This document shows, piece after piece, positions 972 to 37,938 of a DNA stretch of 40,688 nt. The notes under the pieces are model-generated. The model saw only the letters and a list, made by a program, of their open reading frames with translations, searched no databases and had not been told where the DNA came from. The DNA comes from a bacterium (GTDB taxonomy: Bacteria; Armatimonadota; UBA5829), in NCBI GenBank assembly GCA_021373255.1, contig JAJFTD010000126.1, forward strand, positions 1 through 40,688, written 5' to 3'. The translations under genes were made by a program, and so were the position numbers. Each line of letters starts with the position of its first letter. The stretch's first letter is position 1.

Positions 972-2849
972 CTATTTGTAGCTAGGTATGATAATTCCAC
1001 GCATGATCACATTCTGCGCAAACGCGAAGACTAACAGGGTGGGCAGCGCTGCGAGTGTGAGTGCGGCCATTGTGACGTATTGCGGCGCGGTGGACTGCAA
1101 TTGATATAACCACACCATCATCGTCCACATCTTGGAGTCCTGACACACCAGCATCGCATACATAAACGCCCCGTATGCCCCCGTGAACGACTGCAGCGCG
1201 ATCACCGCGAAGATGGGCTTACTCATCGGAATGGTGATGCGCCTGAACATTGTACTCTCGCTAGCACCGTCAATAATCCCCGCTTCATACAGCTCCTTTG
1301 GAAGACTGTCGAAGAACCCCTTAAGCAAAAATATCGCGTAGCCGTTCGCCATCCCTGGCAGGATCAGTGCCCAATACGTGTTGAGCAGGTGGAACTGTTT
1401 CAGTAGCAGGAAGCTCGGGATCATCGCCACTTCCGCAGGGAACGCCATAGTCGCAAGCAGGAACAGCAGCACCTTATATGCATAGGGCAGGCTGTAACGT
1501 GAAAGGGCATAGGCGCACATCGGATTCACTATGAGGTGGATGCAGATGACCGCGAGCACGAATATGAGCGTGTTCATTACAGCACGCCCGTGCAGGAACA
1601 TATAGTCGATCACCACCGCATAGTTGCGTGTGGAAAAATCGGTGCGGAGCGCGCCTACGTGAGCCGAGACATACGCCCAGTCGGACGCATATACTGGCGG
1701 AGTGATGTCGTCAAACGATTTATATCCCGTCCCAAGCGCCGCGTTCGCCTTGCCTACGCTCCCGAACTCCTGCCGCAGATGCTCTCTATAGAGGTTCTCG
1801 GTGTTCACGGGATGCACCATCGAGAGTGGCACAGCCTTACCTATAAAGTCCATCCAATCGACGAGCCGGCTTCCACCTGACGCGTGCTTTACAGGAAGCG
1901 CTATCTGATCGAAAGAGCCGTATGTGGTGCCGTAGCGCTCGTTGAGGGCGGCGATATTGCTTTTATAGCGATTTATCAGAAACGTCCTGTAACTTGTCAC
2001 AGCAGCGGGATCGATACGCATGTATCGAAACGGGAGCTGAGTGCGCACAAACGAGCTCCAGTCGGCCGCCATTGCCTTGTTCGAGGGTGGGGTGGCGCTG
2101 AGGCGAATCTGGGCGAAATCCTTGAAGTAAGTGCCCCAACTCGCATTCAATTTGTCTAGGGAGCCCTCATAAACCGCATTCTTGAGATATGCCTGAAACG
2201 CGGGGTCCACCATTATCGGGCGCAGGAAATATGTAGGCAGCTTTTGCTTGAATTCCAGCCATTCCTGCATCTTGAGTGAGTTGTCCGGTTCCCACTCGCG
2301 CATTTTAAAACGTTCAAACGGCGGCGAAACGGTTCTAAACGAGTCGTTTTCCTCAATATACGCGCGATTGAGTTTGCCGATGCTTCCCCCAAAGCGCCGC
2401 CTGCAAAAGTCCTGATAACGCTGCCTGAGCTGGCTGGGCGAGTTCATATACCCCTCAAACCCGGCCTGCTTGTAACTGATCGGCAGCGATTCAACGAACC
2501 GCGTCCAATCCTTTACCAGTGCCTGCGTTTTCAGTGAGGTGGGGTCATGGCTCGGCGGCTGAACATCATCAATCTTCGCGAAATCAGTGCCGTAGTATTG
2601 GTTGATAAGCTCGATATCACCCGCATAACGATCTTCGGCATACTTGGGGAACAGCGCATCGGTGCGATACAGATAATGGGGGATTATGCTGTAGTTATTC
2701 ACGTCAGCGCCACTGGTCACGGACGACCCGAGCATCAGCACGAACGGATACACCATTGTGACTGCTCCGACAGTGAGCGCGATATACAGAGCCGCTATGG
2801 TAAGGCGCATCTTCCACGTGCGCCGCCCGACCTTGGGGATAATCGCCAT
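972..2849 (-). CDS. Sugar ABC transporter permease (MalG type) with large five-repeat insertion
   Basis: This 625-residue protein is more than twice the usual length of a MalG-type permease (about 280). Residues 13-42 form the first membrane helix. Residues 420-625 carry the remaining helices and the cytoplasmic EAA loop (LYEAGIIDGAS, about 520-545, with EAG in place of EAA), which docks to the ATPase. Between them, residues ~70-395 hold five tandem units of 60-70 residues. Each has a pattern like LNxxYGTxYxSFDxIxxP followed by DWxxF and a proline. By topology this block lies outside the membrane. The ATG has a GGAG site seven bases upstream, and the gene starts three bases after the preceding permease fusion, so the two are co-translated. 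Its role is half of the membrane channel for an oligosaccharide importer; the repeats' role is unknown. Confidence 0.88.
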   Translation of the reverse strand: MAIIPKVGRRTWKMRLTIAALYIALTVGAVTMVYPFVLMLGSSVTSGADVNNYSIIPHYLYRTDALFPKYAEDRYAGDIELINQYYGTDFAKIDDVQPPSHDPTSLKTQALVKDWTRFVESLPISYKQAGFEGYMNSPSQLRQRYQDFCRRRFGGSIGKLNRAYIEENDSFRTVSPPFERFKMREWEPDNSLKMQEWLEFKQKLPTYFLRPIMVDPAFQAYLKNAVYEGSLDKLNASWGTYFKDFAQIRLSATPPSNKAMAADWSSFVRTQLPFRYMRIDPAAVTSYRTFLINRYKSNIAALNERYGTTYGSFDQIALPVKHASGGSRLVDWMDFIGKAVPLSMVHPVNTENLYREHLRQEFGSVGKANAALGTGYKSFDDITPPVYASDWAYVSAHVGALRTDFSTRNYAVVIDYMFLHGRAVMNTLIFVLAVICIHLIVNPMCAYALSRYSLPYAYKVLLFLLATMAFPAEVAMIPSFLLLKQFHLLNTYWALILPGMANGYAIFLLKGFFDSLPKELYEAGIIDGASESTMFRRITIPMSKPIFAVIALQSFTGAYGAFMYAMLVCQDSKMWTMMVWLYQLQSTAPQYVTMAALTLAALPTLLVFAFAQNVIMRGIIIPSYK

Positions 2850-2852
2850 ATA

Positions 2853-5273
2853 CTACTCCTTCGCCCCCGCCGAGAACTTCAAATCTTTGAGGATTCTGAG
2901 CTGATACATCGTGAACCCGATCAGCATACTTCCCATAATCCACGCTTCAGCAGTGGCAAAGCCGAACTTCAAGAACATAAAGGCATTGTACCAGATGTCG
3001 AGTCCGATGACGTGAGTGGCATAGTTGGGCCCACCTCCGGTCATCACAAAGACGTTCTCCATCGCCTTGAATGCCCCGATGAACGCCCCCACGAAGTTGA
3101 TAATGATAAGCGGTTTGAGCATCGGCAGGACGATGTGCCAGACTTTGGTCCATATCCCAGCGCCGTCCACATCAGCCGCTTCGTACATCTCGTCGGGAAT
3201 GCTCTTCAACGCCGCCAGGTAGATAATGCTCCCCGGCCCCGCGCTCGCCCATATTACGGGGATAATGATGCAGAACATCGCCATGTGAGAATCGTTGAGC
3301 CAGGTTTGCGTGGGGATGTGCAGCCACGCAATAAGCGAATTGAATAGCCCCTGTGGGGTGGGGTCGTAGAACCATTTCCACAGGAACATAATCACAAGCC
3401 CGCTGGTGACTGCTGGCAGGTAATACAATGTCCTGTAGAGCATCTTGCCGCGCGGGACCTCTGAGAGCATCAGGGCGAGGAATATGGGCACAAAGAACCC
3501 AATCCCCAGCGACAACGCCACATACTTGAAGCTGTTGATCAGTGCCCACCAGAACGTGTCCTGCCCAACCACCGCGATAAAGTTATCCAATCCGACAAAA
3601 CTGCTGCCACCGAGTATCCTGAAGTCCTGAAACGCCATCACAAGTCCGCGCATCAGTGGATAATACATCCACATCAGCACGGAGAGCACCGCCGGAAGCA
3701 TGAATAGCCAAGGTACAATATGCCCTTTAAGTCCACTGCCACCCACGGGGCGGGAGTCCGGCGCGTCTGCCGCATGAGCGCGGGATAAAACCTTCACTTG
3801 GCGTGTGACAAACATCGCAATAATCGCTAATACTGCGAGCACAATCACCCACGCCGTCATGCGTTTCCTGTGCATCTCCGCTGGTGGCACATAGCCGATC
3901 ATCTTTCGGTTGATGCGATCCACGCACGCATCCAGCAGTTTCTTTGTGTTGGCACTGGGGTTTTGGTAGATGGCCTGCATGGGCGCGTCCATCTCGTTGT
4001 AGATCATCTCGCAGTTGGGACCGTTGGGCTCGGGTTTGCCATGTATAAATGCGCTCTCACTCGCCGCCACCCACGCCTTGGGAATCTCCGGCACATATTC
4101 AGAGTAACCATACTTCACGAGTTTGGACGGGTTTACATACTTCCACAGGCCGTTTTCGACGTAACTTCTGGTGCAAATCTCGTCTGCATGGGCGCCCGCC
4201 ATAAACTTGATATACTCCCAAGCCGCGCGCTTTACCCGAGGGTCCTTGATTTGGGTGCTCATACCCCACATCCCCGCATTGATCTCATTGGCATGAATCC
4301 CTGTGGGGCCAGCCGGAAGTGGCGCTATGCCCAATATGCTGGGGTTGAGGTCCGAGCGGGTTATGACCTGGTCCTGCGCGCAGGACATCCACATCGCGAG
4401 TTTATTGCGCTTGATATCATCCTGGAAATTGTTAGTGACATTTGCCACGCCACGGTAGGTCTTGCCATTACGAGTCCACTCGCCGCGAGTGAGCTTTGCA
4501 TAAAACTCCAGTGCCTTTACACCCGCAGGAGAGTTGAAAACAGCGCGAAATTGCCCGCTCTTGTCCTGCTCGAGTACATCACCCCCGGCCTGCCAAATAA
4601 AGTCGGTGAGGTAATACCCGCCCTGCGTTTGTGGGAAAAAGAACCCCCACTGGCCTTTTTCGGGCACAGTGAGCTTCTCTGCATACGTGTAGAACTCGTC
4701 CCAGGTCCTCGGTGGGCGATCCGGGTTTAGTCCCGCGGCTCTGAACAGGTCCTTGCGATAATACAGCGCCATAGCAGCCTGGAACCACGGCACGCAGTAG
4801 ATATGCCCATCCACCGTTATCGCCTTACGAATCGCGGGATGGACATTTGCAAGCACTTTCGGGTCGTTCTTCACGTATTCGTCCAACGGCTGCAAGAAGC
4901 TCTGCCCTATGTATGTGCGCAGCTTCCTGAAGTTGACATAGAACACATCCGGCGCAGCGCCCCCTGCCATAGAGAGCAGGAAGTTGGATTCCGAAGCGGG
5001 TCCTTGTATGTTCAGCCCCTCGGCGCTTACGATCTGGATATCGGGATGCTCGCGTTTGAATGCCTCGAACACGGCCCGATTAGCGCGAGCCCAGGGGTTG
5101 TTGTCGTTCTTCTGAGGTATGCCCCATATTCCTCCAGCCAAGTGAAGAATCACTTTCTCGTGATGGGTAGTATCGGCTGAGGTAGATTTCGGCGCGCTCA
5201 AGCACACGGCGGCAATGACTGCGCCTATCAAGATGAGATAAAGATGAGATATGGGGAGATATTTTCGGTACAA
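2853..5273 (-). CDS. Sugar-binding protein fused to ABC permease (MalE-MalF type fusion)
   Basis: This 806-residue protein has two parts. Residues 10-28 form a signal or anchor helix, and residues ~40-460 are a family-1 extracellular solute-binding protein (AAPDVFYVNF, WFQAAMALYYRKDLF and PRTWDEFYTYAEKL blocks are typical). A helix at ~474-490 and a charged linker lead to a MalF-type permease (~517-800) with the EAA loop YEAADVDGAGIWTKVWHIVLP. The binding protein is therefore tethered to its channel rather than free or lipid-anchored. The only start before the conserved part is TTG at 5271-5273 (a second TTG is at codon 15), without a clear ribosome site. No ATPase gene is nearby, so a shared MsmK/UgpC-type ATPase encoded elsewhere is expected. 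It heads the two-gene operon. Confidence 0.88.
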   Translation of the reverse strand: MYRKYLPISHLYLILIGAVIAAVCLSAPKSTSADTTHHEKVILHLAGGIWGIPQKNDNNPWARANRAVFEAFKREHPDIQIVSAEGLNIQGPASESNFLLSMAGGAAPDVFYVNFRKLRTYIGQSFLQPLDEYVKNDPKVLANVHPAIRKAITVDGHIYCVPWFQAAMALYYRKDLFRAAGLNPDRPPRTWDEFYTYAEKLTVPEKGQWGFFFPQTQGGYYLTDFIWQAGGDVLEQDKSGQFRAVFNSPAGVKALEFYAKLTRGEWTRNGKTYRGVANVTNNFQDDIKRNKLAMWMSCAQDQVITRSDLNPSILGIAPLPAGPTGIHANEINAGMWGMSTQIKDPRVKRAAWEYIKFMAGAHADEICTRSYVENGLWKYVNPSKLVKYGYSEYVPEIPKAWVAASESAFIHGKPEPNGPNCEMIYNEMDAPMQAIYQNPSANTKKLLDACVDRINRKMIGYVPPAEMHRKRMTAWVIVLAVLAIIAMFVTRQVKVLSRAHAADAPDSRPVGGSGLKGHIVPWLFMLPAVLSVLMWMYYPLMRGLVMAFQDFRILGGSSFVGLDNFIAVVGQDTFWWALINSFKYVALSLGIGFFVPIFLALMLSEVPRGKMLYRTLYYLPAVTSGLVIMFLWKWFYDPTPQGLFNSLIAWLHIPTQTWLNDSHMAMFCIIIPVIWASAGPGSIIYLAALKSIPDEMYEAADVDGAGIWTKVWHIVLPMLKPLIIINFVGAFIGAFKAMENVFVMTGGGPNYATHVIGLDIWYNAFMFLKFGFATAEAWIMGSMLIGFTMYQLRILKDLKFSAGAKE

Positions 5274-5972: not shown

Positions 5973-8900
5973 TTAATATGATGGTGGAGGTGGGAGAGAT
6001 ATGGTTGCTTTGAAATCCTGATTCGGCTGATCGGATGTTACGCTCGTATACTCGTGGCACTCAGGGCTGAAGGTATAGAGGCTATGCAACCATATGTGCA
6101 CCTTACCGCTCCAGCCAGCCGGCACTGCCATACTATAATATCCATTGTTATCGGTTTGGGTGGACTGATCCAAGTTGTCGATATACAGCATAACTTCCCC
6201 GATTGGTGTTCCATCTGCAGTCTTAACGTATCCTGAAATAGTCGGTTTTAGTTTTGCTTGGAAGTTCTGATTTGGCAGATCTGTGGTCACATTAGCGTAT
6301 GTGTAACTCTTAGGGTTGAACTCATACAAGGCATGTGAAACAGTTACTGTGCCGCTCCAACCTTTTGGCACGATGATAGAATAATAGCCACTATAATCTA
6401 TATTCCACTCGCCTATGCCGCTAACGTTAATATGTGCATCGCTCACCGGGCTGCCGTCCATTGTGCGAAGATAGCCTGAAATGATAGGCTTCGGTATCGC
6501 TTCAAAATCTTGATTCTGTTTGTTTGCGGTCACGTTTACATAATCATGAGACTCCGGGTTGAACGTGTATAGATAGTTTGATACAGTTACTGTACCACTC
6601 CAACCTGTAGGTACCAGAATGCTGTAGTACCCGCTTGAATTAGTGTCTGCCCACTGGATTCCATCACTTGTATTTATCTGGGCACATTCTACCGGAGTCC
6701 CGCTGGGAGTCCGGATGTATCCTGAAATTGCTAGTCTGGCTATCGCTTCATAATCCTGATCTGTTATATCAGCTATTACATTGGTGTAATCCCGGTTTTC
6801 CGGGCTGAATGTGTAGAGATATGCCGGTTCTACTATTACTGTGCCGCTCCAGCCAGATAATACTGGAATGGAATAATAGCCCTCAGAATCCGTGTAGTAA
6901 TTTTCCCAACCATCATTGGTATGGATGCATACATATTCGACAGCCGTTCCGTTTGCCGCACGAATATGGCCTGAGATAGTCGGCTTCGCCGTTGCGTTAT
7001 AATCCTGATCCGGTTGATCAGTAGTCACGTTGGCATAGTTATAACTCTCAGGCGTGAACACATAGAGGGGGTGTGATTGCACTGTCACGGCACCACTCCA
7101 ACCGGGTTGTACTGGAATGGAGTAATAACCGTCTGAATCTGTCTCGTAGGAGTTGATACCATTACTGAGATATGCACACACAGCGGCTCCATCTGCTGTG
7201 CGAATGTGACCTGAGATCACAGGTTTGACTATAGCTTCGAAGTTTGAATTTGGTTGATCTGAAGTTATGTTTCTAAAATCCCGGCTCTGCGGGCTAAATA
7301 CATAGAGATCTTGTGATTCTATATCTATTGTGCCGTTCCAGTCATTAGGCACGGCAAAGCTGTAATAACCATTGGAGTCAGTGCGTTCGTAGTAATAGTA
7401 GTAGTCGTTTTCCGAATGTAAATATAATTCAACATTCTCAACCGGTGTTCCGTTGGACGTCTTCACATATCCAGAGATAATAGGCTTGTTTACTGCCTGG
7501 AAATTTTGATTAGACAAATTGGTGGTTACGTTGATGTAATTGCGTGTTTGTGGGATGCAGTAATACTCCGAATTTTCCCACACGTTTACTGTGCCATCCC
7601 AGCCGGCAGGCACGTGGATAATGTAATAACCTCTTGAGTCTGTTCGGCAATAGGTGTTATAACCGTTTACATTCGAGTCGTAGGCATCAATGCTGAGATC
7701 GTCTATTGGAATTCCATTTGCTGTACGAACATATCCTGAGATAATCAGTTCGGATATAGCCAATATGTCTTGATCAGGAATATCATCTGTTACATTAGTG
7801 TATTCACGGCTTACTGGATTGAATGCGTAGAGTTCCTGTGACCCTACGTTCATCTGACCGCTCCATCCTGTTGGCACGTGGAGGGAGTAATAGCCGTCAG
7901 AATCTGTGTAGTAGCTATCGCTATCCGTGTAAATATTTACGTAGCTTACCGGCATACCATCTGCCGTGCGAACATGACCTGAGATGATCGGTTTAGTTAT
8001 CGCTTCAAAGTCCTGATCAGATTGATCGCTTATTACGTCGGTAAAATACCTGCTTTCGGGAGTGAAAGTATAAATACGAGAATAAAATTGTAGAGTGCCG
8101 CTCCATCCTTTTCTTACATGGAGGGCGTAGTAGCCATCAGAGTCTGTATACACACAGCCGTCATACCACCATATTTCTAAGCCGCTTACTGGTGTACCAT
8201 CAGATGTGCGTATGTGGCCGGATATTACGGGAGCGGTCTTCGCTTCGAAGTCTTGATTGGGTATGTCTGTCGTCACATTTGTGTAATTCCGACTCTCAGG
8301 AGTGAAAGAATAGAAGTTGTTCGACAAAGCGTATAACGAGCCACTCCAGCCTGGAGACATGTGTAGCGCGTAATAGCCCTCGGAGTCTGTATAATAACTA
8401 ACCCCGTCTGCCCATAATTGGGCGTCTTTTAAAGGCGTGCCATCCGCTGTCCGAATATGACCGGATATAATTGGCTTGGCTTTCGCAATGAAGTCCTGAT
8501 TTGGTATATCGGTAATTACGGATGTGTAATCCCGGCTTTGGGGTGTTAAAGTGCAGGAAGCCGAAGATGCACCTAGAGCGCCGCTCCAGCCAGACCATAC
8601 GTGCAGCGCATAATACCCGTTAGAGTCTGTGTTATAGCTACGGTCGCCTAGCCATATTTGAGCATCATTTACAGGATTACCATCTGCCGTGATGACATGA
8701 CCTGAGATGGTCGGTCTTACTGCCGCTACGAAATCTTGATTAGGTAGATCGGTGGTTACATCTGGGCAATAAAGATACATTGGAGTAAGATCATATAGGT
8801 CCGACGAAGGAAATAGATATGCACAATAATGAGCTGGTACGCGTAAGGAATAATAGCCTTCAGAGTTCGTGTGGCAATCATCCCATTCAGAACCCATTAT

Positions 8901-10094
8901 ATGCACATCTATACATACATTACTCGCAGGAATGCCATCAGCCGTCCTTACGTGCCCCGAGATTGTATACATGCGTGTTGCTTCAAAGTTTTGGTTTGTC
9001 AGATCGGCTGTCACATTTCCAAGCTGTAAAGTAGTTGGCCAGAATATATAAAGATCATGCTGCGCTGTAAGATTTCCACTCCAACCTTTCAGCACACGAA
9101 CGGAGTAATGGCCACTGGAGTCGGTATAGCTGCCGTTTCCTCCGTCAGGGCACACATACACGCCGCTTACACCAACGCCTTCAGGCGTGCGAACAAATCC
9201 TGAAATCAGTCTGTGTGCAACGGGGTAGTTATGCTCCCGCAGGTCATCGGCACGGAGAACAGGGGTATCGTCCTCGAAATCGACCATACCGGTTGCCCTT
9301 ACGAAGTCTCCGGTCATGAGGTCTGAATACCCCGGTGCAATTACTTTGATAGGCTGCTTGGAGCCGTCGTTGATCCAGAGGTTATTCGAGTCGATTTCGG
9401 TAAGCCTGCCGACAAGGGTAAACCGGAAGTTCTCACTCGCTGTCCCCATTATAGGGTCCCATGCGGACTCGATCTTTGTTGCGACGCTGGGGCTTACTTC
9501 CACACCTGTCGTAACATTGAGATTATCAAAGGTCTGATTTGAACAATCATACAGCCCGACATTCCCGCTAGTAAATTCATCAGTATTGAGGGTTGTGCAT
9601 GGGGTGAGCGAACCGTTGAGATAACATGAATAAGTATTACCGGTAACTACAATGCGGACGTGAACATTGTCTCCTTGATTAAAGAGCGGAGAACTGGGGT
9701 TCAAGATTTGAGATCGCCGGTCACTATGAACAATGTGCCAATAGAGCCCATCTCCAAACCGACCTACACCGCCAGTGACGAGAAGAACTCCGCTCACGCT
9801 TCCATTCGCGCAATTTGAACGAAGCCATATACCTCCGTCAGAGATATTATTCACATCGACGTCGACTGCAAAGTCGGTCAGATTCATAGACAAAAGGGAA
9901 ACTGCTGATGGGGAGATGCTTGGATAACGTGCATCGTAGTTCCCGTCGTGGCTATACCAACCCCCCCGCTCGTTACCCCACATTGGCGATTGCCCGCTGT
10001 CAAATGTGTCAAAGAACACACTCGCTCCTAGCACAGGTGTAGCAAACAGAAACACGATTGCCGCCAAGACAGGTGTGAAATTATTGAATTTCAT
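5973..10094 (-). CDS. Secreted 13-repeat protein with lectin-like, OB-like and carboxypeptidase-regulatory-like domains
   Basis: This 1373-residue protein starts at the ATG at 10092-10094, with GGGGGAG seven bases upstream; an in-frame TTG two codons earlier lies too close to that site. Residues 1-24 are a signal peptide ending in VLGA. Residues ~25-195 form a beta-sandwich resembling LamG/DUF1080 sugar-binding domains (FFDTFDSG, IWLRSN, GLYDCSNQTFDNL). Residues ~206-290 form an OB-like module (FTLVGRLTEID ... LWINDG ... MTGDFVRATG). From ~295 to ~1363 there are 13 units of about 82 residues, each running ISGHIRTADGTPV, YYTDSDGYYSLHVP, GWSGTV and TPESRDYTNVTTDQPNQDF, typical of CarboxypepD_reg beta-sandwich domains. 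The protein ends in LPPPPSY with no anchor or sorting signal. It is probably a long stalk or adhesive fibre that displays the N-terminal sugar-binding head. No catalytic domain is seen. Confidence 0.88.
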   Translation of the reverse strand: MKFNNFTPVLAAIVFLFATPVLGASVFFDTFDSGQSPMWGNERGGWYSHDGNYDARYPSISPSAVSLLSMNLTDFAVDVDVNNISDGGIWLRSNCANGSVSGVLLVTGGVGRFGDGLYWHIVHSDRRSQILNPSSPLFNQGDNVHVRIVVTGNTYSCYLNGSLTPCTTLNTDEFTSGNVGLYDCSNQTFDNLNVTTGVEVSPSVATKIESAWDPIMGTASENFRFTLVGRLTEIDSNNLWINDGSKQPIKVIAPGYSDLMTGDFVRATGMVDFEDDTPVLRADDLREHNYPVAHRLISGFVRTPEGVGVSGVYVCPDGGNGSYTDSSGHYSVRVLKGWSGNLTAQHDLYIFWPTTLQLGNVTADLTNQNFEATRMYTISGHVRTADGIPASNVCIDVHIMGSEWDDCHTNSEGYYSLRVPAHYCAYLFPSSDLYDLTPMYLYCPDVTTDLPNQDFVAAVRPTISGHVITADGNPVNDAQIWLGDRSYNTDSNGYYALHVWSGWSGALGASSASCTLTPQSRDYTSVITDIPNQDFIAKAKPIISGHIRTADGTPLKDAQLWADGVSYYTDSEGYYALHMSPGWSGSLYALSNNFYSFTPESRNYTNVTTDIPNQDFEAKTAPVISGHIRTSDGTPVSGLEIWWYDGCVYTDSDGYYALHVRKGWSGTLQFYSRIYTFTPESRYFTDVISDQSDQDFEAITKPIISGHVRTADGMPVSYVNIYTDSDSYYTDSDGYYSLHVPTGWSGQMNVGSQELYAFNPVSREYTNVTDDIPDQDILAISELIISGYVRTANGIPIDDLSIDAYDSNVNGYNTYCRTDSRGYYIIHVPAGWDGTVNVWENSEYYCIPQTRNYINVTTNLSNQNFQAVNKPIISGYVKTSNGTPVENVELYLHSENDYYYYYERTDSNGYYSFAVPNDWNGTIDIESQDLYVFSPQSRDFRNITSDQPNSNFEAIVKPVISGHIRTADGAAVCAYLSNGINSYETDSDGYYSIPVQPGWSGAVTVQSHPLYVFTPESYNYANVTTDQPDQDYNATAKPTISGHIRAANGTAVEYVCIHTNDGWENYYTDSEGYYSIPVLSGWSGTVIVEPAYLYTFSPENRDYTNVIADITDQDYEAIARLAISGYIRTPSGTPVECAQINTSDGIQWADTNSSGYYSILVPTGWSGTVTVSNYLYTFNPESHDYVNVTANKQNQDFEAIPKPIISGYLRTMDGSPVSDAHINVSGIGEWNIDYSGYYSIIVPKGWSGTVTVSHALYEFNPKSYTYANVTTDLPNQNFQAKLKPTISGYVKTADGTPIGEVMLYIDNLDQSTQTDNNGYYSMAVPAGWSGKVHIWLHSLYTFSPECHEYTSVTSDQPNQDFKATISLPPPPSY
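6006..9212 (-). repeat. Thirteen tandem ~247-bp coding repeats
   Basis: The 13 domain repeats are also visible as DNA periodicity. Near-identical runs such as TCTGAGTCTGTG-like (YYTDSDGYY) and CCGCTCCAGCC-like (GWSG) segments recur about every 245-250 bases. Units differ at the surface-loop positions but keep the core. Such an array can gain or lose units by slippage or recombination, so copy number may vary among strains, and assemblies may collapse it. Confidence 0.85.
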
Positions 10095-10213
10095 TGCCAA
10101 TCTCCCCCATTACATTATGTATGTATTATAACATAATGATTGATAGGTTGGGTGTGATTGGATGACGATTGGTAAAAATAGGAGGGTCTGATTCGTGAGG
10201 TTATGCTATTCTG

Positions 10214-20966: not shown

Positions 20967-22229
20967 CTATTCTTCCGAGTTAGGCCCAATCTGCGCTTTG
21001 CACGTGCACTTGTTTTCTATATTTACTCCACCACGCATTCGGTTAGCCATAATCACAGCCGACTTCAGTTTCTCACCAAGCAAGACTTGCTTCTTGCCAC
21101 TTTCCATGAAATCGCATGCGTTGATTATTAAACCGCCATTGTTGGCAATTATGGCAGGTGTGCCTGCATTATTCTGGTCCCAGCTTGTGAAGTGGCAACT
21201 GTTGAAAATCATCTGGCCTGAACCCTCGTTTTTTGCATGGAATTCAGTCTTGCCATAGCCCCAGAATCCACAATTATCAAACTTTACAGGTCCCTCATTA
21301 GTTGCTTTGATATCGATACCGGCCATGAACTGGCAGTTGGTAAACACAATACCTGCGTGCCCCTGGCTGCTTTCCACTGACACAGCACACGGACCGATAT
21401 CTGAACCGGAGTTGTTGAGAATTACATTACCTGGCCCAGCTTTGAATGATGCAAACTGGAATCCAGTCTTGTATGAAATACAGAAACACCCACTTACAAA
21501 TTCCCAATCTGTTCGACCGAATATGAACGCGGTGCCATTCTCTCTTGTGAAGTTCATTGGCCCATCCGGCGTTTCGTCCCAGAACGGCCAGAGATGCACA
21601 TCCTCAATTCGCCCCACATCATAACACTGATCAACGAATATCCCCTTTAGGAGTGGTTGGCTGTATAACCCTTTGATGTAGTGCCTACCGCATTCTAGCG
21701 TGCCAAAGTCCACAGCTTGCCACGGGTTAGTGAGTACTGTGTCAATAATGCTACAGTTTGCACCATGACCACGGACGCACCATGGATATGGCTTGAGATC
21801 ACCCTTTGTTTGCTCTGGATAAAAGACGTTAATGCCTTTCAAAGTCGAGTTTGTATTGAGCATGATAAATGGGGTGCCGTCAGCGTTACCCTTGCCCTCG
21901 ACTGCGAGTAGTGTGCTGCCTTTATACTGCTTGCCTTGGTTTGGAGCACTAAACACACCTTCTAAAGTGACATTTTCCGGAATGTTCAAATGGGTCTTTA
22001 TCAGATAGTTACCTGTAGGCACAAATACTATTCCACCGCCACTCTCACCGGCAGTATCTAGTGCCTTCTGAAAAGCTTTCGTGTCGTCTGTGACACGATC
22101 ACCCTTCGCGCCGAATGACGCCACACTATAAACTCCATTTTGACCGACCAACGCTGCTGTGTTACTAGCCTGTGTTGGTGCTCCCGCTGCAAGAACCATC
22201 ATTGTGAGCATGGCTGGCAAAGAAACCAT
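20967..22229 (-). CDS. Secreted pectate-lyase-3-type beta-helix protein (copy 1)
   Basis: This 420-residue protein has a short signal peptide ending near TQAS. It then shows the Pectate_lyase_3 start (YSVASFGAKGDRVTDDTKAF, GGGIVFVPTGNYLI), followed by a right-handed beta-helix rich in NCQF, NNSGSD and CGFWGYG ladders. About ten cysteines are conserved with the second copy. The start block is shared by polygalacturonase-like and phage-tailspike-like enzymes. No catalytic triad can be named with certainty, so it may cleave uronic polysaccharide or only bind it. The ATG has GGGAGG seven bases upstream. Its close paralogue lies 1.6 kb further on, in the same orientation. Confidence 0.82.
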   Translation of the reverse strand: MVSLPAMLTMMVLAAGAPTQASNTAALVGQNGVYSVASFGAKGDRVTDDTKAFQKALDTAGESGGGIVFVPTGNYLIKTHLNIPENVTLEGVFSAPNQGKQYKGSTLLAVEGKGNADGTPFIMLNTNSTLKGINVFYPEQTKGDLKPYPWCVRGHGANCSIIDTVLTNPWQAVDFGTLECGRHYIKGLYSQPLLKGIFVDQCYDVGRIEDVHLWPFWDETPDGPMNFTRENGTAFIFGRTDWEFVSGCFCISYKTGFQFASFKAGPGNVILNNSGSDIGPCAVSVESSQGHAGIVFTNCQFMAGIDIKATNEGPVKFDNCGFWGYGKTEFHAKNEGSGQMIFNSCHFTSWDQNNAGTPAIIANNGGLIINACDFMESGKKQVLLGEKLKSAVIMANRMRGGVNIENKCTCKAQIGPNSEE

Positions 22230-22384: not shown

Positions 22385-22693
22385 ATGTTAGCAAGTTTTT
22401 CGGTTATCCCCATCGGTGCCGGTGAAGAGTTGAAAGAACTTGTCGCCGATATCTTGTCCATAGTGGACAAATCCGGGCTGTCCTATAAGCTCGGCGCAAT
22501 GCAGACTACTCTCGAGGGCGAACCCGAGCGGGTGATGAGCGTTGTTATGGAATGCCATCGCAGAATGCTCGAACTCGCGCCCAGGGTTCTCACCAACATA
22601 ACAATTGACGATCGCAAAGACGCTCAAGGCCGCCTTGAGGGCAAGGTTAAGGACGTCGAAGATATATTGGGAAGGGAGCTTTCACATGAGTAA
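22385..22693 (+). CDS. MTH1187/DUF77-family thiamine-binding protein
   Basis: This protein has 102 residues if started at the ATG at 22385 (start of MLASFSVIPIGAG), with GAGG eight bases upstream; a TTG eight codons earlier has no ribosome site. The family pattern is clear: SVIPIGAGEELKELVADIL, SGLSYKLGAMQTTLEGE, then NITIDDRKD and a lysine-rich end. Members are small ferredoxin-like tetramers that bind thiamine. It overlaps the next gene by eight bases, so the two are coupled. Confidence 0.85.
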   Translation: MLASFSVIPIGAGEELKELVADILSIVDKSGLSYKLGAMQTTLEGEPERVMSVVMECHRRMLELAPRVLTNITIDDRKDAQGRLEGKVKDVEDILGRELSHE

Positions 22694-23720
22694 TGCGCGT
22701 GTTGGCAAGCTCTCACCAAGCAAGACTAAGCTCCTCCTCGCAGACGCATTCGGTAAAGAATGTAAAGAGCTCATAGTCGGTCCCGGCCCCGGCCTGGACG
22801 CCGCTGTTCTCGATCTTGGTGACGGGCGCGTGATGGCCATTGCGGAAGACCCCATATTCCCCGCGCCAGGCCTTCCTTTGGAGATGTTCGGCCAGTTCAC
22901 GGTCCATATAGGAGCCAGTGACGTTGCCGTTACAGGTATAAAGCCTCAATTCATCACATATTCTCTTCTTCTTCCGCCCGGCTTCTCGGAGGAGGACACG
23001 CGCACTATTGTCCAGTCCATATCCGACACAGCACGGAGCCTGGATCTCTCGATTATCGGTGGCCACACGGGCTGGTACGGCGGCATCAGCATGCCTATCG
23101 TGGGTGGTGTAACAGTCTGGGGCTTCGCTGAAAAGGACAAATGGATATCCCCTGGTGGCGCACGCGAGGGTGACATTATCCTGATGACCAAAGGCCCCGC
23201 TATCGAGGCCACAGCCCTGCTCGCCGTGCTCTACCGTGAGCGCCTGAGCGACCGCCTGCCGGTTGCTACTCTGGATAAACTTTGCTCCCGCACGGAAGAG
23301 ATCACCGTTGTGGATGATGCTCTTACGGCATTCGCTGCCGGAGGTGTTCACGCAATGCACGATGCCACCGAGGGTGGGGTGCTTGGCGGGTTATGGGAGA
23401 TGGCCGAAGCGTGTGGGCTCAGCGTAGAAGTTGACCTGGACAGCGTCGCTGTACCATCAGACATATCAGATTTTGCCGATGCCCTGAAGTTCGACCCCTG
23501 GGCCGCGATCAGCGAGGGAACCCTGATGGCTGCAGTGAGCCCGGATTCAGTAGATCGTGTGTCTGCCGCGTTATCTGACAAGGGTATAGAAACATTCGCT
23601 CTGGGCCAATTCGTGTCGCGCGACACAGGCAGCACGATCCATCGCAACGACAACGTAGGCTCACTAGACGAACCCGGTACCGACCCGTTCTGGGAATTAT
23701 TCTTTGCAGGGTTGGAGTAG
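22686..23720 (+). CDS. AIR synthase/HypE/ThiL-superfamily protein
   Basis: This 344-residue protein has the two-domain fold of the PurM superfamily. An N-terminal ATP-binding domain shows VGPGPGLDAAVLDLGDG, AIAEDPIF, GQFTVHIGASDVAVTG and a glycine loop IIGGHTGWYG. A C-terminal domain shows the MHDATEGGVLGGLWEMAEACG motif typical of HypE-like members. Superfamily enzymes activate small substrates through ATP-dependent phosphoryl intermediates (PurM, HypE, SelD, ThiL). The overlap with the thiamine-binding gene hints at a thiamine-related reaction, but the sequence matches the HypE-like branch better than ThiL. The ATG is at 22686, with GGGAGC eight bases upstream. A shared terminator follows. 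Confidence 0.8.
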   Translation: MSNARVGKLSPSKTKLLLADAFGKECKELIVGPGPGLDAAVLDLGDGRVMAIAEDPIFPAPGLPLEMFGQFTVHIGASDVAVTGIKPQFITYSLLLPPGFSEEDTRTIVQSISDTARSLDLSIIGGHTGWYGGISMPIVGGVTVWGFAEKDKWISPGGAREGDIILMTKGPAIEATALLAVLYRERLSDRLPVATLDKLCSRTEEITVVDDALTAFAAGGVHAMHDATEGGVLGGLWEMAEACGLSVEVDLDSVAVPSDISDFADALKFDPWAAISEGTLMAAVSPDSVDRVSAALSDKGIETFALGQFVSRDTGSTIHRNDNVGSLDEPGTDPFWELFFAGLE

Positions 23721-23847: not shown

Positions 23848-25113
23848 TTATTCTTCCGAATTGAGCCCGATCTGTGCCTTGCACGTGCTCTTGTTTTCTA
23901 TACTCATCCCGCCGCGAAGTCTATTAGACGTAATCACAGCCGATTTCAATTTCTCGCCAAGTAAAATCTGCTTCTCACCGACAGCCATGAAATCACACCC
24001 GGTAACCATTAAGCCGCCACCGTTGGCAATTATGGCAGGTGTGCCTTCATTATTCTGGTCCCAACCTGTGAAGTGGCAACTGTTGAATATCGTTTGGCCT
24101 GAGCCCTCAATGTTCGCATGGTATCCGGTCTTACCATAACCCCAGAACCCACAGTTATCGAACTTGACCGGTCCATTGTTTGTTTCCTTGATATCGATAC
24201 CGGCCATAAACTGGCAGTTAGTAAACGCAACTCCTGCGTGCCCCTGGGTGCTTTCCACTAATACAGCACATGGGCCTATGTCTGAACCGGAGTTATTAAC
24301 AAGCACATTGCCCGGCCCATCTTTGATTGATGTAAACTGGAACCCAGTTTTGTATTCAATACAAAAACATCCGCTCACAAATTCCCAGTCCGTACGACCG
24401 AATATGAACGCGGTTCCGTGTTCTCTGGTAAACTTCATCAGCCCGTTTTTTCTTTCATCCCAGAACGGCCAAAAGTGCACATCTTCGATTCGCCCTACAT
24501 CATAACACTTATCAACAAGGATTCCCTTAAAGATCGGTTGGGCATACAACCTTTTGATAAAGTGTTTTCCGCTGTTATTTGTACCAAGATCAATGGCCTG
24601 CCATGGGTTAAGGATTATTGTATCGAGAATAGTAATAGAACCAAAACCGCGAACGCACCAGGGGTATGGCTTTGGGGCGTCTTTCTCTTGTTCGGGATAA
24701 AAGATGCTGATGCCTTTTAAGGTCGCGTTTTGGTTGAGTGTAATAAACGGCTCACCATCAGCGTTGCCTTTACCCTCAACAGCAAGCAAAGCGCTACCAG
24801 CATATTCATAACCAGCGCCGCGGGTAGGGGCACGGAACACACCTTCCAAAGTGACACTTTTCGGCACGTTCAAATGAGTCTTTATCAGGTAGCTTCCTGT
24901 GGGCACAAATACTATTCCGCCGCCATCATTACCGGCTGCATCCAAAGCATCTTGAAAAGCCTTAGTGTCATCTGTGACACGGTCACCTTTAGCGCCGAAC
25001 GACGCTACGCTGTAGACTCCTTTTTGGCCAACCAACGCCGCTGTGTCAACAGCCTGCGTTGGTGTGCTTGCGGTAAGGGCCATCATAGCAAGCACGGTTG
25101 GCAGTGAAAACAT
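23848..25113 (-). CDS. Secreted pectate-lyase-3-type beta-helix protein (copy 2)
   Basis: This 421-residue close paralogue of the protein at 20967-22229 is about four fifths identical in the stretches I compared by eye. It shares the N-terminal YSVASFGAKGDRVTDDTKAF block, the cysteine pattern (FVSGCFCIEYKTGFQF) and the C-terminal CKAQIGLNSEE end. Differences cluster in loops, for example NQGKQYKGS versus TRGAGYEYAGS around residue 95 and the segment before WQAIDLG. It has a signal peptide, and the ATG has GGAGG seven bases upstream. Keeping both copies suggests related but not identical substrates, or dosage. Confidence 0.82.
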   Translation of the reverse strand: MFSLPTVLAMMALTASTPTQAVDTAALVGQKGVYSVASFGAKGDRVTDDTKAFQDALDAAGNDGGGIVFVPTGSYLIKTHLNVPKSVTLEGVFRAPTRGAGYEYAGSALLAVEGKGNADGEPFITLNQNATLKGISIFYPEQEKDAPKPYPWCVRGFGSITILDTIILNPWQAIDLGTNNSGKHFIKRLYAQPIFKGILVDKCYDVGRIEDVHFWPFWDERKNGLMKFTREHGTAFIFGRTDWEFVSGCFCIEYKTGFQFTSIKDGPGNVLVNNSGSDIGPCAVLVESTQGHAGVAFTNCQFMAGIDIKETNNGPVKFDNCGFWGYGKTGYHANIEGSGQTIFNSCHFTGWDQNNEGTPAIIANGGGLMVTGCDFMAVGEKQILLGEKLKSAVITSNRLRGGMSIENKSTCKAQIGLNSEE

Positions 25114-25850: not shown

Positions 25851-27875
25851 TTATTTCCAGGGTGGTTTTTCTTCAATGACAGCATCAATCCGGCTGCGTA
25901 GATCTAGGGTCATTCTCACTGCCGCCTTTATTCGATCAGAGTCGCCTGCTGCAGGTATCGAGTAACCGCCTATTGATGTCATTGCATCTTTCCCCCGATC
26001 ACAATCTACCCTGCCTCGCATAAGGTGAATGTCGATCAACTGCTGCCCGAGCCCGGCAAGTGCCTCTATTAAATTGCGATTGTCGGGAATCGGAACGCGG
26101 GGGTAATCCACACCCAGAAAGTCAGCATAACGCTGACGGTATACCGAACTGTGAAGTAGAGCATATATATAGGTAAAGAGCTGGCCATCACACGGCGTGA
26201 AATTGTAAGCGCGCTCTGCGCCATTATATACATACTTGGGCAGCAGCATAGCTCCGCCTCTGCGGAACAGGTTCAGATCAGTGGGGCAATCGGTGCAGAA
26301 CACCACATCCCACTCACTCGACCCCGTCACCTGGCCCGCGCGCCCAAGGGCAATCGCCACATTATCTTTTTGTAGATGCTCCATAAAAGGCAGCCTGGGC
26401 CGCTCCATTACCGCTCGTGATAAGTAGGCCCACCTCCGGTCAAATGGCCTGTAGAGCACCTCTACTGCCCTGTCTTCCCATTCGCAATCATCCAGCAATA
26501 TGCGTCTGGCTAGCTCAATGTCCAAGTCTCCGACAGGATAACGCTCGCGCACTTCTTCCGGCGACACGCGCTCATCTCTCAGCACTCCTATGCGTTTGAG
26601 CAAGGCATTGCGATCATTATCAATAGCAAATGCGTCTCGTGATGTCACAAACCCTACGCTACTCTTCCGAAACATATCGATCACAGATTCAAAGCTATAG
26701 TATTCTCCCGCAAGGTCCCGGTTGATGGGCCTGAATGTGTGAAACGGCTTCTCTGCGCGCACCTCGCTCCAGTCCATGTCGGCCAATTCGGCAGACGCAA
26801 GCAATTTGAGCTTGGATGCCCTGCTGCCTTTGATTTCGCAGTGGCGCACTCTGCATCCATCGCCGGAGCCACTCCTTACCATAAATGAGATAGCCACTCC
26901 CATCTGTATGGGGAACACATTCTCATCAACGCTGCCATCTGAATCACGGTGCCCATGTGCGGCGGTCTTTGCATTGCCTGCAAGATCGAGCACAAGGATT
27001 TCATCAAAGGTCTTCATCAGACTGGTGCGCATTACCCGGAAAGTGGGGTTGAATATAAAGCTGTGGTTGGTGATGAATGCCACGACTCCGCGTCCTGCTT
27101 TTTCCACACGCTCCTGCGCGACTCGAATGAACTTCACATAGTCGTCCTGCAGCCACTTCGGGTTGCGCTCCGTGAGCCCGGCCTTGTAATCCATCATCAG
27201 GTCGGCGGCTTTGCCCGCGTTGGATGAATGGCCGGAGTAGGGTGGGTTACCGACGATCACCAGCGGGGCTCCACCAGTGTGAATGTCGATTGCCTCCAAC
27301 CCGTCCGCTCGGATGATTTCAGACTTGTTCAACAGTGCAGACGCTAGCGCACACGGTACGGGCATCAGTTCCAAACCCAACAACCGTCCGACGGGCAAAT
27401 TACTCTTCTCAATATACCGTAAAAACGTACCAGCTCCACAGCAGGGGTCGACAACCACCGCTCCATCTAGCCCAATGCCGAAATGCTCTCTCAGCAGCGA
27501 CTCTACACCCTTTACAATAAACGATACAACACCCGGCGGGCTGTAGTGTACCCCGCGTCCGCGAGCACTCGTGGAGTCGTAGTGCCTCAGAAACTCTTCA
27601 TAAAAGTAAACCGCGGGATCTTTACCGTCGTCGAAGTAGTCAGCAAAAATCGTTTCAAGGTCGAATCCATCGAGCAGCGTTTCGACTTTCTCGACTAAGC
27701 CGTCATTCCTAACCTCACATTGCAGCGTTCCAATACTCGCGTCAGCCTCCCAACGTCTCACGAACAGCCCATACACCACGCTCTGAGCTGCCAAATCCCC
27801 ATGCGTTTTTCTTGTCTCCGCAGCTACCCCAGCCATTGCCGCCGCCAACTGCCGCCGTTCCCGTGTGTTTGCCAT
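25851..27875 (-). CDS. Solitary N6-adenine DNA methyltransferase, type ISP-like
   Basis: This 674-residue protein has an N-terminal helical region (~1-100), then the lead-in GVHYSPPGVVSFIVKGVESLL seen in type ISP and type IIG enzymes. The SAM-binding motif I follows as VVDPCCGAGTFL (~141-152, with Cys where Ala is usual), then catalytic motif IV NPPY (210-213). The C-terminal ~300 residues resemble the target-recognition region (VLYRPFDRRWAYL, PKYVYNG). It would methylate adenine in a specific DNA site. There is no nuclease or helicase domain and no restriction gene beside it, unlike full type ISP proteins (about 1500 residues). The ATG is at 27873-27875. It may be an orphan regulator of DNA state or a remnant of a split system. 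Confidence 0.85.
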   Translation of the reverse strand: MANTRERRQLAAAMAGVAAETRKTHGDLAAQSVVYGLFVRRWEADASIGTLQCEVRNDGLVEKVETLLDGFDLETIFADYFDDGKDPAVYFYEEFLRHYDSTSARGRGVHYSPPGVVSFIVKGVESLLREHFGIGLDGAVVVDPCCGAGTFLRYIEKSNLPVGRLLGLELMPVPCALASALLNKSEIIRADGLEAIDIHTGGAPLVIVGNPPYSGHSSNAGKAADLMMDYKAGLTERNPKWLQDDYVKFIRVAQERVEKAGRGVVAFITNHSFIFNPTFRVMRTSLMKTFDEILVLDLAGNAKTAAHGHRDSDGSVDENVFPIQMGVAISFMVRSGSGDGCRVRHCEIKGSRASKLKLLASAELADMDWSEVRAEKPFHTFRPINRDLAGEYYSFESVIDMFRKSSVGFVTSRDAFAIDNDRNALLKRIGVLRDERVSPEEVRERYPVGDLDIELARRILLDDCEWEDRAVEVLYRPFDRRWAYLSRAVMERPRLPFMEHLQKDNVAIALGRAGQVTGSSEWDVVFCTDCPTDLNLFRRGGAMLLPKYVYNGAERAYNFTPCDGQLFTYIYALLHSSVYRQRYADFLGVDYPRVPIPDNRNLIEALAGLGQQLIDIHLMRGRVDCDRGKDAMTSIGGYSIPAAGDSDRIKAAVRMTLDLRSRIDAVIEEKPPWK

Positions 27876-29516: not shown

Positions 29517-32500
29517 CTATGGACTAACTCTTGTTAGCGATGTGGCTGACACTACAGCCGGGTTAGTCGCGTTGTTGAGTCTTCCACGCACTGTTACGTA
29601 GTTTCCATTAGAAAGCCCGTGGCCGGAGTAGATTACTCTAACCGGCATCCCTGAGCCGTCATCTATGGTGAACTCGTTGGTGTTTATTACCGTCACTTTT
29701 CCCCAAAGAGTCCAATCATACTTATCAACCGAGCTTTTTGTTATAGCATCATAAGCTGCACGATTAGTGATCGCAAATGTAGGCTGAGCATACTTATCAT
29801 TAAAGTTCTGCACCCACTGCATAATATTGGGATACAGGCTTCCGGTATAGTAGCACTGTGGGAAGTGCGATGTGAAATACCAGGTCCAGATGGCGATCAG
29901 GTCTACTCCGTCCTGCTCGAACGAGTTCAGCAGAGGCAGCAGGTATGTCGCGGACGGGTCCTGGTCTATGCTTGGCTCGGATTGCCCGGTTTCGCCCACG
30001 AAGCACGGCTTACCCTGGCTTTGCGCGAACAGGTTCTCCTGGCGATAGAAGTCGAAGTATGTCAATCGCCCAGGTGCATTTGCGGTATTGTCGCTGCCGA
30101 CATATTCGTGCATGCAATACATATCCAGCATTTCCTGCGATATCCGCAAGTTGGTCAGGTTCTGCGAGAGCGTATCGGTTCTCCACACAGTGTTGGGGAA
30201 GTTGGTCCGCAAGCTCTCGCTGCAGTCTCGTCTCATAGAGTCGCCGCTTTCGAGAAGATGGTTCGGGTCCAGTGACTTGACCATATTGTTGATGTCGTTA
30301 TAGAACTGCAGTAACACATTGGTCGTCGTACTGTCTTCGAGAACCAGTGTGGATCTATAGTTTGCGTAGCCGGGTGATCCAGGCAGCATCACGCCTAAGC
30401 CGGGAGTGCTATTACCGGTCTGGTTCAAATCCGCACCCAGATACATCTCGTTGGATATCTCCCACATCAATACCGTGGGGTCATCCCGGTAGCGCAAGAT
30501 TACTTCTCGCCCATAATCATGCATTGCCTTATAGGACTGCGATGCAGGGTTGATCATGCTCTGATAGGTTTCCCCAAAGATCATCGGCCACATCGTGCTG
30601 TTAAAGTACAGAGATGGCACCAGGCGGATGCCGTTTTGCTTGGCAAGCGCGAAGACCTCATCCATGCGGGTCCAGTATTCTTCAGGGTCATTGAAGTAAA
30701 GGGCCATATCCACAGGCCAGAAGCCGGTGCACCAGAACCGCAGCAGCGGAACTCTGTGTTGTCCTGCATCTGCCAGAGCACCGGCAATGAAGCTACGCTG
30801 ATCTTCTACTGAAGAGTAGTTTGCGCTGTCAAAGCCCAGTGGTGCATACTTAGTGAAAAGGTCAGGCAGGTTGAACCCAAACGCGCGATATGGGAAGCCG
30901 TTCAGCGACAGCGACGAACCGTTGCGACTGAGGAACTCGGATGGCTGCCTGGCCGCCAGCTTATCTATCTCAGCCTGTGTTAGCGCCTTATCGTAGATAC
31001 GGGCTTCTTCTAGATTCACTACAAGGTTGCTGCTGGTAACATTAGCCACAGCGGGAGCCATTAATACAGAGTCGTCATTACTATCGCCGAAGCTTGCAAG
31101 ATACGCATCATTGAAAGATAATGGGGACCCATAAGGCTGAAGTCCGCTGCCATCGAGCTTATCCAGGTAGAATGTAACGGTGAACTGGCTTCCCGGTAAG
31201 TCGTTCCATACAGCTACCAGCTTCACTAGCTTACCCACCGGAATGGCAGGAGGATTGGATACGTAAGGATAACCTACCGCCTCAATGCTCCACGTGTTGC
31301 GGGCGATCACACAGAACTGCCCGTTGGACCAGCAGATGCGGTCTCCGGGCTGGTTGGAGGTCTGTGACTTGAACAGCTTCAGCAGATCGATAGAATCATC
31401 TGCGTCGGCCCCACTGATTGAGAGCCACATTGTATAGGTCTTCTCTCGATACGCAGGCATATCGGATGCAAGAGTAGCCGAAGCATTACCGATCAACCAC
31501 TTTGACCCGCTCTGGTAGGCCGAGAAACGCAACTGACCGTCTATAAAGGCTGCCCCAGCCGTGCTGAGTCCCAGTGAAGACCAACTCGTGTCGGGAGCTT
31601 TGCTGTAGCGCGCGTCATCGCCGCCGCGTGAGTCGAATGTCCATTCACCAATGAGATGAGCAGCCACCGGAACCGGCCTTTGCGAGGGTAAAAGTCCGCC
31701 TATCTCATCTTGAGTGAGGGCTACCTCATAGACCCTGGCTTCATCGATGCTCACCGCGAACGTCTTGCCGGTCAGATTCTGCATAATAGGAGCAAATTGC
31801 ACAGTATCATCATTCGCTGTGCCGAATGCAGTCAGATAGCTGTCATTAAAGCGCATCGGGCTGCCGTAGACCTGCGGACCCGTGCCATCCATTTTGTCTA
31901 CATAATATGTGACAGTGAACAGCGCATCGACGTCGTTTTTGACTACGACCGCAAGTTTTACTTCTTTTCCCCGAGGAATAGACATCGGGTTGGATGCGTA
32001 AGGATAGGCTGAGGTAATACCGCCCGCTGAGCTCTTAACCTCCGGGTAGAACTGGCTGCTCCAGTCGATACCTTCATATGGCTGATTGGTCGTGGCGTTC
32101 TTGCGGAGTCTGAATATACCGGCGACATCGTCGCTGTCTCCAGATTTATCAAGCGTGAGCCACATAACAAAGCTCTTGTCAGAGTAGGGGGTCCGGCTGC
32201 TTCTCAAAGTGGCCGAAGCCTGCCCCAAAGTCCATGTTCCCTGGGACTGATAAGCTGATAAATGCAACTTTCCATCCCTAACCTCTGCTCCAGATGAACT
32301 GAGGCTGAGTGTATCCCAATTGATCCAGGATACCTTATTATATAGTGGTCCATTATTCCCAGAATAGTCGAAAGTCCAGCATCCCGCCAGCCTGTCTGTA
32401 TCCGGCCTGGGCGTTAGGGTAATGGCGTCTATTTCTCCGGGCTCAAGAGCCCCAGAGTAGAGTCTGGCTTCGTCATAATAGATGTCACCAGCCACGCTCG

Positions 32501-37200: not shown

Positions 37201-37872
37201 GGAGCCGTAAGGTCTGAGCCCCTGGCCATCATAGTTGTCCCAGTAGAAATAGACCTTTGAATAAGTATCTTGCAGATCTGAGTCGTCAAGTATTGCAACC
37301 TGCACCAGCTTGATCATCTTGCCGGCTTGGATCTCAGGACCCTGTTGCTCAACATAATTCCTCGGAATAGTATTTGTCCAGGAATAGGGCCTGAGCCATT
37401 CCTGACCAGCTCTGAGGTCGAACTGCCGCTGGCCTGTTGCTGCGGGACCCTGACACCAATCAATGAGTGGTCCATAAGTCGGGTTTCCACATCTGAACAT
37501 AAACGAGTAATCGTCATCGTCGCCCAACTTGTCAATGGATACCCACAAGATTGTTGTGTGACTCGTGGATGGTACGCTGCCGGTAGCAGGAGTTACCAGT
37601 GTTGAATTCAACGCCTGGGTAGTCCATGTGCCATCGGTTGCTTGGCAGGCATTACAGGTCATCTTGCCATTTGCAAATGTAGGCGTTCGATCTCCAGTGT
37701 CTGGAACGGAGCTCTCCCAGGTGTATCCGGGAGCAGAGTTAGCCATCTGAGCGGCAGTGTCAGAACCTTCGAAGTTCCACTTGCCGATCAGCGTGGCCGC
37801 TCCCGCCTGCATCGCTAAAAGCGCGAGCAAGACCAGGACAATAGCCACTGTCTTCAGTGATCTTTCTTTCAT
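34231..37872 (-). CDS. Secreted protein with four LamG-like modules and C-terminal OB-like module, no catalytic domain
   Basis: This 1213-residue protein starts at the ATG at 37870-37872, with AGGAGAGG seven bases upstream (a longer frame to 37908 lacks a site). A signal peptide ends near AGAA (~25). Four modules begin TLIGKWNFEG, KLVGKWTFDW, KLIGKWTFDY and TMIGKWNFDG. Each has the internal YFKE(Q/W)T block and ends EEARLYSDTLT-like. The last ~70 residues (WGRVHVVDENTFTIDDGSG ... YVSVKGTLN) are the same OB-like module as in the neighbouring glycanase. There is no hydrolase motif, so it probably binds or presents polysaccharide at the cell surface, perhaps for the glycanase. It follows the pseudopilin gene by 66 bases and is likely co-transcribed with it. 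Confidence 0.85.
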   Translation of the reverse strand: MKERSLKTVAIVLVLLALLAMQAGAATLIGKWNFEGSDTAAQMANSAPGYTWESSVPDTGDRTPTFANGKMTCNACQATDGTWTTQALNSTLVTPATGSVPSTSHTTILWVSIDKLGDDDDYSFMFRCGNPTYGPLIDWCQGPAATGQRQFDLRAGQEWLRPYSWTNTIPRNYVEQQGPEIQAGKMIKLVQVAILDDSDLQDTYSKVYFYWDNYDGQGLRPYGSRIELSEAGAPMLGNAGDEVWFFPGANSLTADTIDFTFEEARVYTGAMTQAEADAVTYDGQPKLVGKWTFDWSNASGPMANKAPGYNWNPMVATGQTANTVSLENGQLKLIRWPEGGAYRQPGASATLATDLGLANYFKEQTQVVWVKWSDLDANHSEWLTSLRKACNPPFGATTNERPECTLWFNTDASNANWTDRHQGETLDTNNVLTISGNTTTLGSTTKPLANTITKVAYVIKADPDSPGNYFAYIYADFNDGLGVRTIGTPSRVWGSQLNDFGQASAPCTIDANQDTSLHTDSFTILPYCPAVPNGAGSISIEEAQLYAGAMDPVTIGKLDYSHSGAPKLIGKWTFDYSNQTSPSASKAAGVLWDPIVTTDSGSTIADGKLILPKGANGQVGARAKLKTDLGASGYFKEWTVVSWLKWENFTSPEFISTVSLMKMDSTGATRAGSQNCWVNDTWAVRPVWENPDCTVNGNDHYGFAKLDTDPYPATDKFIKMAWVCRQIDDANFEIKPYWDKGAGLVPASNGSAIIAANKMYFYGQSGSANISSSCTGTRFDELDFPGFPWNSGTGAGNMIYDEVQLYSGAMTTDQINALAATNGPTDVTGTMIGKWNFDGADTTEMLSNKVPDVTWAKPIFHNGDNSYTVANGKLTLERYQDGSTWQQNGVSWPLHTDLMATRGSYFQNFSMVLWMKYSDVDPGTSQWIAGPWKTGSQIGNPYQTIWFNNTRTDSTFWEARGGGHYLNGSGILSWSDCDSALVTDADLYTNQPAGYTPSLKFQMPANQLFKLAYVFHPSWADPWEGRHRGDIYIDLLDGQGLKLIGTTDRMWGSNISWFGQYMAPNTVDPTQDTGMLSDTFDIFYFCPGVPAKAGYVEIEEARLYSDTLTQSDLAGLKYDGQVPPVVNQVVGASNKAVLDSIMTTAAPKYDWVLWGRVHVVDENTFTIDDGSGVFITVNATGHGLEGTPYVSVKGTLNLSGSTPVLNAKTITPR

Positions 37873-37938
37873 TCTGTTCCTCTCCTTTTCTAGTGTGCTC
37901 CGCCGCATAAACTGCGGTCGGGCGAATTGTATGGTGTA

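Follow-up and report, generated by a model that had tools for sequence, protein, structure and literature searches.

Why does a MalG-type permease of a type I sugar importer carry a large extra domain between its first two transmembrane (TM) helices? The question is raised by one gene in a stretch of 40,688 nucleotides of contig JAJFTD010000126.1 from a bacterium of the Armatimonadota, which is referred to here as the window. The gene and the landmarks of its membrane part are as follows.

972 to 2849, minus strand: MalG-type ABC permease gene with a five-unit insert, 625 aa
2727 to 2783, minus strand: TM helix 1, residues 23 to 41, from hydropathy and charge bias
1527 to 1583, minus strand: TM helix 2, residues 423 to 441, from hydropathy
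993 to 1469, minus strand: BPD_transp_1 permease core, residues 461 to 619 (Pfam PF00528)

PF00528 matches residues 461 to 619 with 54.2 bits against a Pfam cut-off of 26.4, and the closest solved relative of the core is Escherichia coli MalG (2r6g_G; E value of 2.7e-15, residues 436 to 620). An EAA-type loop (EAxxxDG...IxxP) is present at residues 522 to 541 (EAGIIDGASESTMFRRITIP), in which E522, D527, and G528 are invariant among 20 homologues. Hydropathy reveals five TM windows, the last two of which overlap, and the TM part of the AlphaFold2 model has low pLDDT values. Four lysine or arginine residues precede TM helix 1 and none follow it, which indicates that the stretch between TM helices 1 and 2 lies outside. 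An earlier reading made from the letters of the DNA (the sequence-only reading) had placed the repeat block outside the membrane, in agreement with the hydropathy and charge bias. When the protein is aligned to unexpanded MalG paralogues encoded in the same genome, the extra sequence opens in the TM1-TM2 loop, which corresponds to MalG-P1. Like the MalF-P2-like docking domain, the insert is large, extracytoplasmic, and flanked by two helices of a type I importer. A local assembly artefact or frameshift was rejected as its source since full-length homologues with the same array are present in many genomes.

Five further MalG paralogues of this genome (L009, 3053 to 4369, minus strand; L010, 2871 to 4187, minus strand; L011, 3424 to 4359, plus strand; L001 and L002 [C33 and C26]) have a different TM1-TM2 insert of about 60 to 80 residues that appears beta-like by eye. 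Their partners are MalF proteins fused to a binding protein in three cases and seemingly unfused ones in two. P1 is a loop that has been elaborated by the lineages here.

In the 625-residue permease, the first periplasmic loop is occupied by five tandem units spanning residues 65 to 408, about 345 residues (1626 to 2657 of the window).

2451 to 2657, minus strand: repeat unit 1, residues 65 to 133, 69 residues, with K69 and E72 invariant
2211 to 2450, minus strand: repeat unit 2, residues 134 to 213, 80 residues, aligned to GH42 4uni/4uoq and GH14 1ven
2013 to 2210, minus strand: repeat unit 3, residues 214 to 279, 66 residues
1809 to 2012, minus strand: repeat unit 4, residues 280 to 347, 68 residues, nearest to the solved GH42 structure 6ptm
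1626 to 1808, minus strand: repeat unit 5, residues 348 to 408, 61 residues, shortened and leading into TM helix 2, with R402, F405, and R408 conserved

All 10 pairwise alignments between units scored above every one of 500 shuffles (Z, 5.6 to 11.9), and a hidden Markov model built from the five units and iterated over homologues, with the consensus LFRKYLEKKYGGDIEALNKAYGTEYASFEEVTLPQELPDNGAKVADWEEFVRTLPLRY, detects units in distant permeases. Within unit 3, Y227, N235, T240, D263, and W264 are invariant among the 20 homologues. In the AlphaFold2 model of the full protein (20 homologues), the insert has pLDDT values of mostly 81 to 94, falling to about 70 at the border of units 1 and 2 and within unit 2. 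Modeled alone, the insert has a mean pLDDT of 92.1 and a pTM of 0.88. The predicted secondary structure runs through helix, helix, short turn, helix, and strand five times over. The shuffle test and this predicted pattern uphold the tandem five-fold repeat claimed in the sequence-only reading, in which units of 60 to 70 residues were expected; this length holds for units 1, 3, 4, and 5 but not for unit 2. A disordered insert was rejected on the AlphaFold2 confidence of both the full protein and the insert alone.

The units resemble a part of known glycosidases. Pfam GH42 (PF02449) matches the insert with 64.3 bits against a cut-off of 21, covering only profile positions of about 144 to 216 of 376, and also matches 19 of the 20 homologues; GH14 is a weaker second Pfam match. 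Structure comparison aligned the units right after the acid/base Glu of glycosidases, including GH42 (4uoq, residues 165 to 246; Z of 8.0 over 71 residues), GH14 beta-amylase (1ven; Z of 8.0), and a GH35-type glucosaminidase (5gsm; Z of 7.3), although structural Z values of about 7 to 8 may occur by chance. The GH50 and GH167 structures gave weaker alignments, and the tightest match was that of 6ptm to unit 4 (1.6 Å over 61 residues, 30% identity). Because the sequence profile agrees, the same site is hit in several families, and all of the matches listed for the insert are carbohydrate-active enzymes, sequence, profile, and predicted structure together indicate that the five units are homologous to the helical segment after the acid/base Glu of GH42/GH14/GH35-type glycosidases. 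The GH42-like pattern seen earlier by eye has thus become homology to one defined segment. Foldseek, proposed in the sequence-only reading for the isolated insertion, gave no match below an E value of 0.001 in the PDB or BFVD, and the VIA matches listed are essentially confined to single units. The array in its entirety was matched by no solved structure, which does not prove a new fold.

The genome also encodes a GH42 enzyme of its own (locus L027), which has a trimerisation domain and in which the shared segment is preceded, at a distance of about 24 residues, by the acid/base motif WNE. In comparison with this enzyme, the acid/base Glu (NE motif) is absent from the five permease units, and the partial profile match shows that the insert does not contain a complete GH42 catalytic barrel. 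Since both the barrel and the catalytic Glu are missing, the array, judged by its sequence, cannot act as a glycosidase by the GH42/GH14 mechanism. The GH42 (4uoq, 4uni, and 6ptm), GH14 (1ven), and GH35-type (5gsm) enzymes share this segment with the permease but have one copy each, whereas the permease has five in tandem without the TIM barrel or catalytic Glu. As judged from sequence, the units are a noncatalytic glycosidase piece in five copies. The GH42 score above the Pfam cut-off could be taken to mean that the units keep or have regained enzymatic activity, but the restricted profile match and the lack of the WNE motif make this highly improbable.

The gene immediately preceding the permease gene encodes its probable partner.

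2853 to 5273, minus strand: partner gene (806 aa), in which a binding protein is joined to a MalF-type permease; it lies 3 bases upstream of the MalG gene
4191 to 5075, minus strand: SBP_bac_1 domain of the partner, residues 67 to 361 (PF01547, 134.6 bits)
3804 to 3860, minus strand: additional TM helix of the partner by which the binding protein is tethered, residues 472 to 490, from hydropathy
3063 to 3497, minus strand: BPD_transp_1 core of the partner, residues 593 to 737 (PF00528, 49.7 bits)

The fusion of binding protein and partner permease described in the sequence-only reading is confirmed by PF01547 and a MalF-type PF00528 in this one gene. As read from the sequence, the first two core helices of the partner are only about 40 residues apart, and the partner therefore has no P2-like loop. 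The MalF-type partner and binding protein paired with the insert-bearing MalG are as expected of a CUT1/MalG-type ABC permease. The insert-bearing MalG gene comes right after the fusion gene at many loci, and in other families it stands alone. Nineteen of 20 genomes tested, many with unlinked genes, encode a single unambiguous orthologue of the partner fusion with 46 to 58% identity, far above the next paralogue. Among 291 genomes, 124 have both the insert and the fused partner, 13 have only the insert (several of these genomes are incomplete), 7 have only the partner, and 147 have neither (Fisher P of 4e-57, inflated by common ancestry). On the question of whether the insertion is always accompanied by a fused binding protein, the two occur in the same genome in 124 of 137 cases, though frequently at separate loci. 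The co-occurrence makes it the simplest reading that the insert-bearing MalG and the fused partner are the two halves of one transporter.

Matches to the insert were found in 170 of 291 Armatimonadota genomes at E values of ≤1e-3, some of the weakest of which may be glycosidases rather than permeases, and in 137 at about 1e-10. The phylum to which Oligosphaera ethanolica belongs was sampled with 289 genomes, of which 69 match at E values of ≤1e-15, mostly with one match per genome. Full-length named homologues include Lentisphaerae, Kiritimatiellota, one Phycisphaeraceae metagenome-assembled genome, and the isolate Oligosphaera ethanolica DSM 24202, and the array has been kept in at least two deep bacterial groups. 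Five units are recognized in most homologues, with a range of about 1 or 2 to 6; one large family has fewer recognized units and ORFs of 500 to 550 aa. Homologue length is fairly constant in distant groups, at about 620 to 660 aa. Unit-by-position comparison between phyla is only partly clear because units 3 and 4 cross-match. Lentisphaerae-type partners (L077, 5187 to 7973, plus strand; similar in L066 to L079) have an extra hydrophobic insert between the MalF core helices, and in L076 and L078 an extra hydrophobic insert is also present in MalG.

The transporter is usually single copy and often located away from other sugar genes, and no neighbor gene other than the partner recurs. In six loci of one family (L147, L148, L149, L152, L154, and L155), the fused partner lies no more than a few kilobases from recA, and a priA-like gene is found near it in five loci; this arrangement is conserved but shows no evident connection with sugar use. 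Gene neighbors gave no indication of function, and proximity to recA is uninformative about the substrate. Elsewhere in the window are a secreted-looking protein of 1,375 aa that contains numerous tandem repeats, each about 75 residues long, of the ISGHVRTADGTPV... type (5973 to 10100, minus strand) and two closely paralogous right-handed beta-helix (pectate-lyase-like) proteins (20967 to 22229 and 23848 to 25113, both minus strand), which flank an AIR-synthase-like gene (22605 to 23720, plus strand). The window also contains an adenine-specific DNA methyltransferase-like protein, which has an NPPYSG motif and may be a restriction-modification enzyme of type IIG (25851 to 27875, minus strand), and a pair of very large secreted proteins in which LamG-like domains are repeated and the C-terminal segments are similar (29517 to 34061 and 34231 to 37908, both minus strand).

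What the array does outside the membrane may be approached through its position. MalF-P2 and MalG-P1 occupy pseudo-symmetric positions in the importer. We tentatively propose, by analogy with the maltose system, that the array may well dock or orient the binding protein that is anchored on the partner subunit MalF. A catalytically dead, rigid array on MalG-P1 would stand over the translocation path and serve as a docking or orienting scaffold for a binding protein covalently tied to MalF. The binding protein would be held in register, so that opening of its cleft would coincide with opening of the pore, in the way that MalF-P2 and MalG-P1 hold MalE in E. coli. E. coli MalE interacts with P2 of MalF and P1 of MalG, according to the title of Daus 2007 as cited in PMC3150292. 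Docking is favored because the insert sits in MalG-P1 while the partner MalF lacks a P2-like loop, because the insert and the fused partner co-occur, and because the array is predicted to be rigid and well packed. Conservation points in a similar direction. The best-conserved residues of the insert are repeated structural positions and the membrane-proximal ends (K69, E72, R402, F405, and R408), with no single obvious ligand pocket among the conserved insert positions, a pattern that favors a scaffold over a conserved ligand pocket but with which glycan binding would still be compatible. Mirror-tree analysis gave weak partial correlations of insert distances, with TM cores controlled, of 0.36 with the binding protein and 0.52 with the partner MalF, compared with 0.14 against its own TM core; it does not discriminate for docking, since the control of MalG core against binding protein (0.32) is similar. 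Several observations also speak against docking: a binding protein that is already held covalently may not require a further docking domain, unit number differs between homologues, and some fused systems of the same genome have only the small, different P1 insert. A P1 insert is also present in two MalGs whose neighboring MalFs appear to be unfused, which indicates that such inserts are not confined to fused systems.

The main rival to docking is glycan binding, in which the array would be a putative platform whose five units grip an oligo- or polysaccharide chain and pass it on to the binding protein and the pore. Every unit is homologous to a part of a carbohydrate-active fold beside the active site, conserved aromatics are abundant in each unit, and glycosidases with a single such segment are encoded in the same genome. 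However, the conserved aromatics occupy repeated fold-defining positions and may be core residues, the insert is far less conserved than the TM core (mean of 0.44 to 0.52 versus 0.80), and the neighbors of the transporter are not consistently sugar degrading, which leaves such a platform rather doubtful. An unspecific periplasmic gate, spacer, or wall anchor, covering the mouth of the pore, extending to the cell wall, or fixing how far away the tethered binding protein is held, is also unlikely. The variable number of recognized units, as expected of a spacer, and the low conservation outside fold positions speak for it, and the near-constant homologue length across distant groups and the good conservation of same-position units 3 and 4 between phyla speak against it.

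The docking scaffold proposed here has known counterparts in its parts. E. coli MalFGK2 MalG (2r6g chain G) has a homologous permease core and the same TM1-TM2 site, but its P1 is a short loop, in contrast to the five units and the partner-fused binding protein found here. MalF-P2 also lies, as a large extracytoplasmic domain, between two permease helices of a sugar importer of type I, and an analogous docking role is proposed; however, it is a single domain on the other subunit, and the likeness drawn here is one of position. No MalF chain is among the Foldseek/VIA matches listed for the insert, which does not count against a shared fold. OpuA and GlnPQ are ABC importers in which the binding protein is covalently tied to the transmembrane subunit, as here, and they transport osmolytes or amino acids; we know of no repeat domain on their partner subunit. 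Neither a description of a tandem glycosidase-segment array on an importer nor an annotated permease subfamily, which the sequence-only reading had allowed for, was found in NCBIfam and in a partial survey of the open-access literature, to which most subscription papers do not belong. Pfam matches both domains, so the combination is already visible in databases without explanation. Within the literature searched, what is new is the tandem array of glycosidase segments on the outer face of an importer.

Taken together, it seems reasonably likely that a noncatalytic piece was cut out of a glycosidase barrel, amplified about five-fold, and placed into MalG-P1 as a new docking or substrate-handling domain, which with the MalF-tethered binding protein forms an ancient, usually single-copy sugar-type importer of Armatimonadota, Lentisphaerae/Kiritimatiellota-type bacteria, and some Planctomycetes. 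The homology of the units explains the GH42 scores of such permeases in automatic annotation, and a cultured carrier, Oligosphaera ethanolica, together with a soluble, confidently folded domain makes the question of function testable. Type I importers are textbook machines in which the register between a tethered binding protein and the pore has been little studied for sugars, and in the present case repeated glycosidase fragments have furnished a widespread lineage with a new permease domain on the outer face.
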